Assembly: GCA_015075275.1 (NCBI GenBank)
Contig: JABTUU010000001.1
Coordinates: 620,001-684,000 of the forward strand
From: Anaerolineales bacterium
Lineage (GTDB): Bacteria; Chloroflexota; Anaerolineae; Anaerolineales; Villigracilaceae
Direction: 5' to 3'
Length of the DNA: 64,000 bases
The notes below the pieces were generated by a model, which was given only the letters and a program-made list of their open reading frames with translations, ran no database searches and was not told where the DNA came from. Position 1 is the first letter of the stretch, and each line of letters starts with the position of its first letter. Shown here piece after piece: positions 25,527 to 28,987 of the stretch. The position numbers and the translations under genes are program-made.

Positions 25527-25537
25527 CGAGCGCAAGT

Positions 25538-25578
25538 AATTGATCAGAGGCTCTCCGAAAGAAAGCCTCTGATCAATT
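25538..25578 (+). terminator. hairpin terminator after the EF-G paralogue
   Basis: A perfect 15-bp stem, AATTGATCAGAGGCT with its complement, around an 11-base loop, 12 bases after the stop codon. The following AAATCTTTTCC gives only a weak U tract. Confidence 0.65.
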
Positions 25579-25656
25579 AAATCTTTTCCTGTCTCTCCGC
25601 AAGAAAATCGCATTTGTAAACGCGAGTATTATGTTATCCCAAAGCGGAAATCTACC

Positions 25657-25684
25657 TTGACGATCTCGATAAGAACTGTAAAAT
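25657..25684 (+). promoter_or_regulatory. promoter of a short RNA or leader
   Basis: TTGACG (25657-25662) and TAAAAT (25679-25684) with a 16-base spacer. The predicted start, about 25691, coincides with the first hairpin of the structured RNA candidate. Confidence 0.5.
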
Positions 25685-25690
25685 AGCGTT

Positions 25691-25853
25691 TCAAGCTATG
25701 AAAACGCTTAACCATTGCTTGTGTATCGGGCGGGGCTCGTAACCGCCGCCTGAGAGACAGATTGCATTCAATAGACCTCTAAGACGGCTGGACGACCTCC
25801 GCGTGCAAAATATACGACGTGTGGAGCTTGTTCGCCGTCTTTTTATTTGTCTG
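25691..25853 (+). ncRNA. structured small RNA or riboswitch-like leader, family unknown
   Basis: No open reading frame. Three stems can be drawn: AGCGTTT with AAACGCT (25687-25710), GGGCGG with CCGCC (25729-25750), and a long terminal hairpin AGACGGC with GCCGTCT, whose inner CTCC and GGAG also pair, ending in TTTTTA (25791-25848). A promoter lies just upstream, so it can be a free RNA of about 160 bases or the terminated leader of the sulfur operon that begins at 26097. It contains CTGAGA, as TPP riboswitches do, but lacks the rest of that consensus. Confidence 0.45.
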
Positions 25854-26083
25854 TGGTTGCTCTTGTTTAATTTAGGAGTTACGCAGTTGCGGATAAGATG
25901 TAGGTAGGATGTTTGAGGTAAGCACGGATAGCCTGATGAATAATGATTTATTTGACTTCAAACTAAGAGGCGTCAGTTTTCAAGTTTTCCGGGCTGCTAT
26001 ACCAACCGTCGAAAGCAGCCAGTTCTGGCGTAAAACCGCGTTCTTGGGCAGAAAGTTGAGCGCCCATACTTGCTTGAGAAATT
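25854..26083 (+). other. non-coding stretch before the sulfur operon, one hairpin
   Basis: No gene is recognised. GGCTGCT and AGCAGCC (about 25996-26020) can form a stem. The segment near 25870 reads GGAGTTACGCAG, similar to ends of some insertion sequences, but no partner end was found. It would form part of a long leader if transcription reads through the upstream terminator. Confidence 0.3.
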
Positions 26084-26096
26084 AGGAGATTTTAAT

Positions 26097-26345
26097 ATGC
26101 CCATTTTACGAATTCCAACCCCGTTGCGCGCTTATGTGAGCGGCGCGGGCGTTTCCGAGGCGTTGAGCGATCTCACGACTCAACGTTCCGTCATTAAGCC
26201 GCATTTATTTAATGGGAACGATGAACTGCGCCCATTTGTCAATCTCTTTATCGGTCAAGATAATATCGAAGATTTACAAGGGACTGCGACGTCGATTAAA
26301 GATGGAGAAGAGATCGCGTTTGTTCCATCTATTGCAGGAGGTTAA
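26097..26345 (+). CDS. cysO: MoaD/ThiS-family sulfur carrier protein (CysO-like)
   Basis: Small ubiquitin-like carrier of 82 residues ending in the required Gly-Gly (FVPSIAGG), which is adenylated and converted to a thiocarboxylate. The start is ATG 26097, with AGGAG nine bases upstream; an in-frame TTG at 26070 is unlikely. The next genes encode a MoeZ-like activating enzyme fused to rhodanese and a PLP-dependent cysteine synthase-type enzyme. In Mycobacterium the same trio (CysO, MoeZ, CysM) makes cysteine from a protein-bound thiocarboxylate, so that role is inferred here. A molybdopterin or thiamine role is the alternative. Confidence 0.82.
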   Translation: MPILRIPTPLRAYVSGAGVSEALSDLTTQRSVIKPHLFNGNDELRPFVNLFIGQDNIEDLQGTATSIKDGEEIAFVPSIAGG

Positions 26346-26346
26346 G

Positions 26347-27498
26347 ATGTTGCCAGAATTATCGCGCGAAGAGATTTTGCGTTATTCCCGTCATCTTTTG
26401 ATTCCCGAAGTGGGCTTGGAAGGTCAACGCAAGTTAAAGAATTCGTCGGCGTTGATTGTTGGCGTCGGCGGGCTCGGCTCGCCTGTGGCATTGTATCTCG
26501 CGGCGGCGGGCGTTGGGCGGCTCGGCATTGTAGACCACGACGCGGTTGATTCGTCGAACTTGCAACGGCAGGTAATTTTCGGAACTTCCTCTATTGGCAG
26601 GTTGAAAGTGGAGAGCGCGCGGAGTAAACTGCTTGATCTCAACTCCGATATTCAAGTGGACGCGTTCAACGAACCATTCACTTCAGGGAACGCGCTGCGC
26701 ATTGCGCGAGATTTCGATTTGATCCTCGATGGCACCGACAATTTTCCTACGCGTTATCTCACTAACGATACGGCGGTCTTCCTCGGTAAGCCGAACGTCT
26801 ATGCTTCGATTTACCGCTTTGATGGACAAGTCAGCGTTTTCTACGCTAAGGAGGGACCGTGCTATCGCTGCCTCTTCCCTGAACCGCCTCCGCCCGGACT
26901 CGTCCCTTCATGCGCCGAAGGCGGCGTTTTAGGCGTGTTGCCGGGAACGATCGGTATGCTTCAAGCCACTGAAGCGTTGAAACTTTTGCTTGGCATCGGC
27001 GAACCGTTAGTCGGAAAACTCTTGTTGTATAACGCGCTTGACATGTCGTTTGACTTTGTGAAATTGAAGAAGAATCCAAACTGTCGCGTATGTGGACCGA
27101 ACGCCGACGTCAAAGAATTGATTGATTACGAAGAATTCTGCGGTGCGCCGAGTCACGACCATGAGGAAGCCTTCGCTGACGCTCGTGTAGATATTACCGC
27201 ATCCGAACTTGCCGAGCGGATGAAGATAAATCATATTAAATTACTCGATGTTCGTGAACCGCATGAATTGGAGATTTCCAAATTGCCGAATGCGATCAAT
27301 ATTCCGCTGGGGCAATTGGCGGGTAGGCTCGTCGAGTTGGATAGCGCTGACGACATGGCGGTCTTTTGCAAGAGCGGAACGCGCTCCATGCGCGCGTTAG
27401 AATTGTTGTCTGGCGCGGGATTCAAGAAGGTGAGAAACCTTAAAGGCGGTATTAACGCCTGGGCGAAGGAAGTAGACGCGAGTTTGCCGATTTATTAA
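26347..27498 (+). CDS. moeZ: MoeZ-like adenylyltransferase/sulfurtransferase (ThiF fold plus rhodanese)
   Basis: A 383-residue fusion. Residues 1-250 are the E1-like domain: VGVGGLGSPVALYLAAAGVG binds ATP, DGTDNFPTRYL follows, and two Cys pairs (CYRCLFP and CRVCGP) bind zinc. Residues about 280-383 are a rhodanese domain with the active cysteine in FCKSGTRS. It adenylates the C-terminal glycine of the small carrier and passes sulfur to it. AGGAGG precedes ATG 26347; the carrier stop is one base upstream. An intrinsic terminator follows the gene. Confidence 0.92.
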   Translation: MLPELSREEILRYSRHLLIPEVGLEGQRKLKNSSALIVGVGGLGSPVALYLAAAGVGRLGIVDHDAVDSSNLQRQVIFGTSSIGRLKVESARSKLLDLNSDIQVDAFNEPFTSGNALRIARDFDLILDGTDNFPTRYLTNDTAVFLGKPNVYASIYRFDGQVSVFYAKEGPCYRCLFPEPPPPGLVPSCAEGGVLGVLPGTIGMLQATEALKLLLGIGEPLVGKLLLYNALDMSFDFVKLKKNPNCRVCGPNADVKELIDYEEFCGAPSHDHEEAFADARVDITASELAERMKINHIKLLDVREPHELEISKLPNAINIPLGQLAGRLVELDSADDMAVFCKSGTRSMRALELLSGAGFKKVRNLKGGINAWAKEVDASLPIY

Positions 27499-27537: not shown

Positions 27538-27577
27538 CATGGAGTACAATACTCCTATCCAAACCAAAGGAGCGAGA

Positions 27578-28987
27578 ATGGCTTTGCTGGCATCTGAGGA
27601 AAAACGAGTCTACGACAATATTTTGGGCGCGATGGGTAATACGCCGCTCGTGCGACTGGGAAAGATCGCCAAAGATTTGCCTGTCCCGTTGTATGCGAAA
27701 TTGGAGTGGATGAATCCGGGCGGATCGGTAAAAGACCGAGTGGGGGCGTTTATTGTTGAGCAGGCAGAGAAACGCGGAGAACTTAAACCGGGTGGAACAA
27801 TTGTTGAAGCGACATCGGGGAATACGGGAGTAGGGCTGGCAATTGCCGCGGCTCTGAAAGGCTATAAAACCATCTTTGTTATGCCCGATAAAATGAGCAA
27901 CGAGAAGATTTTGCTGTTGCGCGCGTACGGCGCCAGGGTGGTGATTACGCCTACTGCGGTTGCTCCTGAAGATCCTCAATCGTACTATGAAGTGGCGAAA
28001 CGTTTCGCGCGCGAGACACCGAATGCGATCCTTGCAAATCAATACCATAATCCTGATAACCCGAGGACGCATGAGCGAACGACTGGACCTGAAATTTGGG
28101 AACAGACTGCAGGGCGCGTGACCGATGTTATTATCGGTATGGGGACCGGGGGAACGATCTCTGGCGTAGGACGCTTCCTCAAGTCTAAGAATCCGAACAT
28201 TCAGATCGTGGGCGTGGATATTGAGGGTTCAATCTTGACGGAAATTTGGCAGAACAAGGGGACGATTCCCGCTGGCGCGTATCCGAAAACGTATAAAGTA
28301 GAGGGGATCGGCGAAGATTTTTTGCCGACTACGCTTGACTTGTCCGTTGTAGATGCGATCGAGCGCGCAGGCGACCGCGAATCATTTTTGTGGGCGCGCC
28401 AACTTGTGCGACAAGAAGGCATCTTTGCCGGCGGTTCGTCCGGGTCTGCGCTGGCGGGCGCGATTAAATATTGCCGCAAGTTAAAAGGCGAGCGTTTCCC
28501 TGTGGTAATCTTCCCCGATTCGGGTTCGCGCTATCTTTCTAAATTTTATGACGATAAATGGATGCGCGAATTTGGCTTTCTTTCCATGGAATTTGGCGAG
28601 ACTTCGCTTGGCGATTTGTTAATCGCTAAGCCCGATAAGGTTTTATACTCGGCTGCTCTAGGCGATTCGATGCGCAAGGTTATCGCCATTATGCACCAGC
28701 ATGGAATTTCGCAAATGCCTGTCGTTGGCGCCGGTGGTGCGCTGGTCGGTTTGATCGAAGAAGTGGATTTGCTGAATCATATGCTCGAGAGGCACGACCA
28801 TAGCCATGAAGAAACAATTGATGCGCTTGTGCAGAACGCCGGAGCAGTCTTCCCGCAGGGGACTTCGCTGGAGGAAGCGATGCCGGCGCTGAAGAGCGGG
28901 TTGGCTTTGCTGATTGTAGAGAGCAGCCGTCCGGTTGGGATTTTGACAAAAATTGACGTATTGGACTATGTGGCGGGGAAAATCTGA
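27578..28987 (+). CDS. PLP-dependent cysteine synthase / cystathionine beta-synthase with C-terminal CBS pair
   Basis: A 469-residue enzyme. Residues 1-330 are the fold-type II PLP domain: MGNTPLVRLG, the PLP lysine in NPGGSVKDRVGAFI, ATSGNTGVGLAIAA and GTGGTISGVGRFLKS. Residues about 345-469 hold two CBS repeats (MRKVIAIMHQHGISQMPVV and the second ending VGILTKIDVLDYV), as in cystathionine beta-synthase, where they bind a regulatory nucleotide or S-adenosylmethionine. ATG 27578 follows AAAGGAG. It lies beside the CysO/MoeZ-like genes, so it could use the carrier thiocarboxylate to make cysteine, or homocysteine in transsulfuration; sequence alone does not decide. Confidence 0.88.
   Translation: MALLASEEKRVYDNILGAMGNTPLVRLGKIAKDLPVPLYAKLEWMNPGGSVKDRVGAFIVEQAEKRGELKPGGTIVEATSGNTGVGLAIAAALKGYKTIFVMPDKMSNEKILLLRAYGARVVITPTAVAPEDPQSYYEVAKRFARETPNAILANQYHNPDNPRTHERTTGPEIWEQTAGRVTDVIIGMGTGGTISGVGRFLKSKNPNIQIVGVDIEGSILTEIWQNKGTIPAGAYPKTYKVEGIGEDFLPTTLDLSVVDAIERAGDRESFLWARQLVRQEGIFAGGSSGSALAGAIKYCRKLKGERFPVVIFPDSGSRYLSKFYDDKWMREFGFLSMEFGETSLGDLLIAKPDKVLYSAALGDSMRKVIAIMHQHGISQMPVVGAGGALVGLIEEVDLLNHMLERHDHSHEETIDALVQNAGAVFPQGTSLEEAMPALKSGLALLIVESSRPVGILTKIDVLDYVAGKI

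Follow-up and report, generated by a model that had tools for sequence, protein, structure and literature searches.

A probable trp-type attenuator reading cysteine codons ahead of sulfur genes in Anaerolineales

Introduction

What is the strongly folded RNA element that sits between an EF-G-like gene and a sulfur operon in this Anaerolineales genome, and does it control the genes that follow it? The window, the whole 64,000-nucleotide stretch of DNA that was analyzed, contains a 570-bp gap between the stop codon of the EF-G-like gene (25526) and the start of a ThiS/CysO-like gene (26097). A sequence-only reading of this gap had described a compact unit placed before a CysO-like operon, and had suggested either a metabolite-sensing leader or a trans-acting RNA. 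The extent of the gap and the nature of the gene that follows it, a match to Pfam ThiS, agree with that description. On the sequence comparisons set out below, the element at 25657-25853 is very probably a trp-type, ribosome-mediated transcription attenuator that would read charged tRNA-Cys for cysteine-biosynthesis genes. Its features are as follows.

25657-25684, + strand: sigma-70-like promoter, TTGACG-16-TAAAAT (promoter scan; TTGACA and TAnAAT boxes at the matching place in close relatives)
25698-25742, + strand: leader peptide ORF of 14 codons, MKTLNHCLCIGRGS followed by a stop codon (sequence; homologous ORFs in relatives)
25716-25724, + strand: regulatory codons TGC-TTG-TGT, Cys-Leu-Cys (codon conservation in 69 homologues)
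25716-25766, + strand: pause hairpin (segments 1:2), the Cys codons and GGGCGGGG with CCGCCGCCTGAGAGACAG (ribosome-free fold; swap test weakly positive)
25730-25802, + strand: antiterminator (segments 2:3), GCGGGGCTCGTAACCGCCGCCTGAGAG with CTCTAAGACGGCTGGACGACCTCCGC (swap tests, aligned pair counts and model search)
25781-25844, + strand: intrinsic terminator (segments 3:4), GACGGC...GCCGTC plus TTTTT (folding; swap-test covariation)
25764-25776, + strand: 5' strand of an outer helix enclosing the terminator, partly decayed in the window (homologues; imperfect pairing in the window)
25849-25873, + strand: 3' strand of the outer helix, then a second T-rich stretch (sequence; homologue comparison)
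26097-26345, + strand: ThiS/MoaD-like sulfur carrier (CysO-like) that opens the operon (Pfam ThiS, 31.1 bits at a cut-off of 22.5)
26347-27498, + strand: MoeB/ThiF adenylyltransferase with a rhodanese domain (profile and similarity matches)
27539-28987, + strand: PLP cysteine synthase/cystathionine beta-synthase-like enzyme with CBS domains (domain matches)

Results

The promoter-like pair TTGACG-16-TAAAAT lies at 25657-25684; a promoter scan over 1.1 kb gave 3 promoter-like sites as against 1.0 in shuffles. RNA from 25685 to 25853 was predicted to fold into three hairpins at -61.5 kcal/mol, compared with -46.0 kcal/mol for shuffles (n = 200; z -4.09), and 0 of 200 shuffles folded equally well. 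The GC-rich terminator stem runs from about 25781 to 25841, with TTTTT at 25840-25844. It was not listed by a simple terminator scan of the region, which accepts loops of 3-8 bases only. The promoter pair, the three hairpins and the U-tract terminator of the sequence-only reading were all recovered at nearly the same coordinates. The unit is as compact and structured as that reading held, and it also contains the leader ORF at 25698-25742, which the reading had missed. A 19-bp inverted repeat (25537-25579) lies immediately 3' of the EF-G-like gene and is probably that gene's own transcription end.

Homologues of the element were collected in several ways. A DNA search of 61 genomes (the window's own and 60 relatives) matched 26, all from the window's family. 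Of 30 loci fetched, 29 were true homologues; the other, L025, was a chance match inside a coding region and was removed before all alignments. The covariance model R1 matched 103 of the 120 genomes searched in the family, 136 of the 301 searched in the order (with E capped at 0.01 for each genome, so that a few order-level matches may be chance) and 27 of 400 genomes sampled across the phylum, with all 27 from the same order, Anaerolineales. Absences in these covariance searches are soft because the stricter filters of Infernal were used. In the searches run, the switch was found only in this one order of Chloroflexota.

A DNA pattern that joined the Cys codons to the GCGGGG block and the stop codon, and used no gene information, found 102 stretches in a one-genome-per-species collection of 84,980 species. 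Of the 80 matches listed, 76 are from Chloroflexota, for the most part Anaerolineales, and 4 are from elsewhere. These four (L074, L094, L109 and L132) had no nearby panel gene and no proper leader, and were dropped as chance matches; the leader frame of L132 is merely the end of a 92-residue frame. L098, whose sequence stops 66 nt past the motif, was left out. Twenty weaker model matches also have a C-x-C leader; 19 of them were hand-chosen among six further families of Anaerolineales, and the last, L186, is a second copy in the window's family. Nineteen of the 20 have the ATG (the exception is L171), and a panel gene follows within 300 nt in 19 of the 20 (the exception is L183). Removal of sequences at least 0.88 similar to one already retained reduced the 124 collected sequences to 69. 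Conservation and covariation in relatives, whose absence together with that of a transcript would have told against the sequence-only reading, were looked for and both are present; on this point the reading stands.

The leader ORF of the window reads ATG AAA ACG CTT AAC CAT TGC TTG TGT ATC GGG CGG GGC TCG TAA. Its start, ∼13 nt 3' of the -10 box, lacks a Shine-Dalgarno sequence, and its translation would therefore be nearly leaderless. All 29 of the first homologues contain a leader ORF which, read in register, ends C-x-C-x-x-R-[GD]-[SL]-stop. An in-frame ATG, counted if it lies upstream of the Cys codons and is separated from them by no stop and by no more than 19 codons, is present in 66/69 non-redundant homologues, compared with 2/69 and 4/69 in the other two frames; a Shine-Dalgarno-like motif accompanies it in 29 of the 66. 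The feature common to the peptides is C-x-C (69/69). At the first Cys codon TGC stands in 68/69 and TGT in 1/69, and the second is TGT in 69/69, a choice that was preset by the DNA pattern for the pattern-derived loci and free in the others. The Cys codons are thus nearly always TGC and then TGT, yet the TGC:TGT ratio across nine genes of the window is 16:4. The arrangement is that of the trp type, with a short leader ORF carrying codons for the amino acid product of the operon, here Cys codons ahead of cysteine genes.

The position of the element 5' of sulfur genes and the strong fold of the leader RNA would also suit a riboswitch binding a metabolite such as cysteine, O-acetylserine or sulfide, in which the ORF is untranslated. 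However, the coding-frame signal in 66/69 homologues speaks against such a switch, as does the observation that no conserved unpaired binding core was seen apart from the codons. Rfam 15 at gathering level identified three tRNAs and otherwise nothing in the whole window and matched none of the elements of 18 relatives, and at E up to 10 the 570-bp gap gave chance-level matches only. The low-scoring ones (mir-26, Yfr10 and others) fell on the inverted repeat at 25537-25579 or were chance. The window element accordingly belongs to no Rfam 15 family (T-box, SAM, TPP and others), in agreement with the sequence-only reading, which had recognized no riboswitch, and we consider a riboswitch highly improbable. 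Of the metabolite-sensing leader first proposed, the cis-acting and sulfur-related parts are retained but the aptamer is not, as cysteine would be read indirectly through two translated Cys codons.

The RNA of the proposed attenuator can adopt alternative pairings, which were assessed by arm-swap tests. Covariation in the pause hairpin is weak by this test (-18.95 for true arms and -17.39 for re-paired arms, p 0.002). The antiterminator pairs GCGGGG-nTCGT-CCACCG-CTGAG with CTCAG-CGGTGG-ACGA-CCCCGC. Its cognate arms, tested independently of any alignment, gave -20.1 kcal/mol, compared with -15.2 kcal/mol for re-paired arms, and 0/10,000 permutations were as good; when the arm of the nearest neighbor was substituted the values were -20.1 and -17.8 (p 0.001; 40 better, 29 worse). 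The terminator arms gave -23.6 when true and -18.8 when re-paired, and -23.75 compared with -22.75 for the nearest neighbor's arm (p 0.03). The CTGAGA that the sequence-only reading had singled out as suggestive lies within the segment common to the pause hairpin and the antiterminator.

RNAalifold, applied to the MAFFT alignment A2, detected the base of the antiterminator only, because MAFFT misaligned segment 3; the antiterminator structure for model R2 was for this reason written by hand. The window scores 114.8 bits (E 3.4e-23) with the antiterminator covariance model. Across 71 model-aligned copies, 86.1% of antiterminator cells are paired and two-sided changes occur at 16 of 21 pairs, counts that lean towards the hand-written structure supplied to R2, the model used for the alignment. 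Only 2/500 shuffles reached 16 two-sided pairs and 0/500 matched the paired cells or the covariation score, and versions of the antiterminator slid out of register were 42-57% paired. By folding, swap tests and pair counts, the antiterminator and the intrinsic terminator are mutually exclusive, as in trp-type attenuators.

The peptide itself could in principle be the sensor. In a TnaC-like arrest-peptide switch the nascent C-x-C-x-x-R-G-S would itself stall the ribosome when cysteine or some other small molecule is sensed, instead of the stall arising at empty Cys codons, and the strong conservation of the tail CxCLxRGS-stop in the window's family, where the leader nearly always ends RGS-stop, would fit this behavior. 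In other families, however, the residues after RG vary freely (tails there are RGL, RGPL, RG, RGLSQPPRI, RGR, RGH and RGT), whereas the bases after RG covary with their RNA partner. The conserved RG is itself explained by the GCGGGG:CCCCGC pairing, in which 99.8% of cells are paired. Since the tail residues vary while the bases hold the pairing, the constraint at this point appears to be on the RNA and not on the peptide, and we judge an arrest peptide very improbable.

The effect of ribosome position on an attenuator of this kind was modeled by folding RNA up to just before segment 4, with an assumed ribosome footprint reaching 12 nt beyond the first base of the A-site codon or of the stop codon. 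An antiterminator of at least 8 pairs formed in 68/69 homologues when the ribosome occupied the second Cys codon, in 3/69 when it occupied the stop codon and in 68/69 with no ribosome, in a model that gives no weight to earlier formation of the pause hairpin during transcription. The ribosome-free count speaks against the attenuator reading, in which the weakly covarying pause hairpin would have to keep the antiterminator from forming. In the folding model with its assumed footprint, whether the ribosome is on the codons or on the stop codon decides the structure, and the modeled outcomes are those of a trp-type attenuator. In the complete RNA the terminator is the lowest-energy structure in most rows among those listed, even with a ribosome on the Cys codons, and the decision must therefore be kinetic, made during transcription. 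In known attenuators the decision is likewise accepted as made while the RNA is being synthesized.

We propose that RNA polymerase would start at about 25691 and that a ribosome would load on the leader ORF at once. With Cys-tRNA plentiful, the ribosome would pass both Cys codons, reach the UAA and cover segment 2, so that the antiterminator would be blocked, the terminator would form and transcription would end at about 25844. With Cys-tRNA scarce, the ribosome would wait at UGC/UGU, masking segment 1 and leaving segment 2 free; segments 2 and 3 would pair before segment 4 is made, no terminator would form and the polymerase would enter cysO-moeB-cysK/CBS. What we infer from the sequence is that the leader is translated, that starvation stalls the ribosome on it, and which way and how strongly the operon responds. 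Many attenuators have more regulatory codons than the two Cys codons present here, a point that counts against the attenuator reading.

The genes that follow the switch were assigned by taking the next recognized same-strand gene at a distance of up to 600 nt. By this rule a cysteine or sulfur gene lies directly downstream in 73 of the 80 listed loci, the next gene being cysM (41), a sulfurtransferase (17), cysK (11), DUF4395 (3) or a CBS-type synthase (1). Three of the remaining 7 loci end too early, and the other 4 are the non-Chloroflexota records, which have no recognized gene. At the 17 sulfurtransferase loci the gene is mercaptopyruvate-sulfurtransferase-like and is usually followed by sufE. 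The cysM operons usually go on to a JAMM protease, sometimes a DUF4395 or DsrE-like gene, a ThiS/CysO carrier and MoeB-rhodanese. The switch thus stands before unlike gene sets, and one leader is common to cysteine and sulfur-transfer genes. Genes for DUF4395 occur within, or first in, the putatively cysteine-controlled operons (L088, L069, L143, L167 and others), as do DsrE2-like genes. Two switch copies are present in one locus in L072 (2432-2565 and 4710-4836) and in L133 (415-543 and 2447-2577), so neighboring cysteine operons can carry separate copies.

This linkage bears on the trans-acting alternative of the sequence-only reading, a free-standing small RNA that lies before the operon by chance. 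The element does have its own promoter and a strong terminator, and a terminated leader would be about 150 nt long. However, all 73 judgeable Chloroflexota loci among those listed (3 more are cut off) lie directly 5' of same-strand cysteine or sulfur genes, 19 of the 20 further loci do likewise, and the promoter scan found no + strand site between the terminator and cysO. We regard a trans-acting RNA as extremely improbable.

The window's own genome contains a single copy of the switch (covariance search, E up to 0.01). The pair cysM then JAMM protease, which neighbors the switch in most relatives, is missing behind the window switch, and this absence counts against the attenuator reading. A search of the window's own genome for a close match to cysM gave none, the best hit being the CBS-type enzyme encoded in the window itself, at 37% identity. 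Searches of the same genome for the JAMM protease and for the second-type sulfurtransferase gave no match, and these blanks are weak, as both searches had no positive control. In the close relative G011 a cysM-like piece lies between the switch and cysO (locus L002, around 1850-2050), whereas the corresponding window sequence, 25860-26096, has none. From these results, cysM seems to have been deleted behind a retained switch in the lineage of the window, probably along with the JAMM protease, leaving cysO-moeB-cysK/CBS under the control of the switch.

In most homologues, an outer helix around the terminator can form between the bases that separate segments 2 and 3 and those that follow the U-tract. 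With a threshold of at least 11 pairs and at most 1 mismatch, this helix is present in 50/68 homologues compared with 5.5 in shuffles. The 11-pair threshold replaced one of 8 pairs, which was too lax (33-44 of 68 in shuffles). The arms of the outer helix gave -19.1 when true and -12.0 when re-paired, with 0/10,000 permutations as good, and -19.3 compared with -15.5 for the nearest neighbor's arm (p 3e-5). In the window the helix (25764-25776 with 25849-25860) is partly decayed, at -11.2 kcal/mol. A T-rich run is often found 3' of the helix in homologues; only 36/68 had the helix followed by 5 or more T within 10 positions, at the lax 8-pair threshold. The outer helix may act as a nested second terminator or may stabilize the RNA end. 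We put forward, tentatively and with some doubt, a two-stage exit in which the terminator is nested in a second one. In this view most of the order's sulfur-carrier and cysteine operons would have the leader as their common cysteine control, with no transcription factor involved.

Discussion

The comparison of homologues establishes, at the level of sequence, the leader frame, the Cys codons, the alternative pairings with their covariation and the linkage to cysteine and sulfur genes. The trp operon attenuator of enteric bacteria is built of four segments, namely leader codons, pause hairpin, antiterminator and terminator, and all four are present in the Anaerolineales element. Unlike the enteric attenuator, the element is concerned with a different amino acid, is unrelated in sequence, has two regulatory codons separated by one and has an outer nested helix.

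Two types of cysteine leader have been described elsewhere. The uORFC-8-2 motif of the Rhodobacterales cysS leader has a short Cys-codon uORF and an intrinsic terminator, with read-through proposed on Cys-tRNA shortage (PMC8632094). The Anaerolineales element shares the short Cys-codon ORF, the intrinsic terminator and the proposed starvation read-through with this motif. However, uORFC-8-2 has tandem Cys-Cys near positions 14-15 and stands before cysS in Alphaproteobacteria (PMC8632094), whereas the Anaerolineales element has C-x-C, stands before cysM, cysK, cysO or a sulfurtransferase gene, and has a covarying antiterminator and an outer helix. With neither tandem Cys codons nor a downstream cysS, and lying outside the Rhodobacterales, it is not a member of that motif.

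Cysteine leader peptides also precede cys genes in Mycobacterium, P. acnes and B. longum, where they have no conserved terminator (PMC1262725), and such leaders are described as translation attenuation (PMC13236596). The full terminator and antiterminator of the Anaerolineales element set it apart from the actinobacterial leaders, which lack a conserved terminator (PMC1262725). Nor does it have the polycysteine ORF without a conserved terminator that marks the mycobacterial type, having two Cys codons and a strong terminator. It resembles the mycobacterial leaders in that a Cys-codon ORF precedes cys genes and in that the copy in the window is nearly leaderless. The mycobacterial cysteine leader peptides studied by Canestrari in 2020 are reportedly leaderless.

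In the literature available to us, mostly outside subscription journals, no cysteine attenuator in Chloroflexota was found. The attenuation principle is classical, and the Anaerolineales switch family appears to be uncatalogued; as cysteine attenuators have been published for Rhodobacterales and Actinobacteria and none was found for Chloroflexota, the family would be new and the type already known. A phylum with no cysteine attenuator in the literature searched would thereby gain one that has both a full antiterminator and a full terminator.

For the Anaerolineales, a large and mostly uncultured order, the element gives a concrete and testable account of how cysteine synthesis may be controlled. 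The leader is a useful marker for sulfur genes in the order. It ties the CysO-MoeB-protease route, cysK-cysE, sulfurtransferase-SufE and DUF4395 to cysteine supply, and for the uncharacterized DUF4395 its linkage to a cysteine leader is a clue to function.
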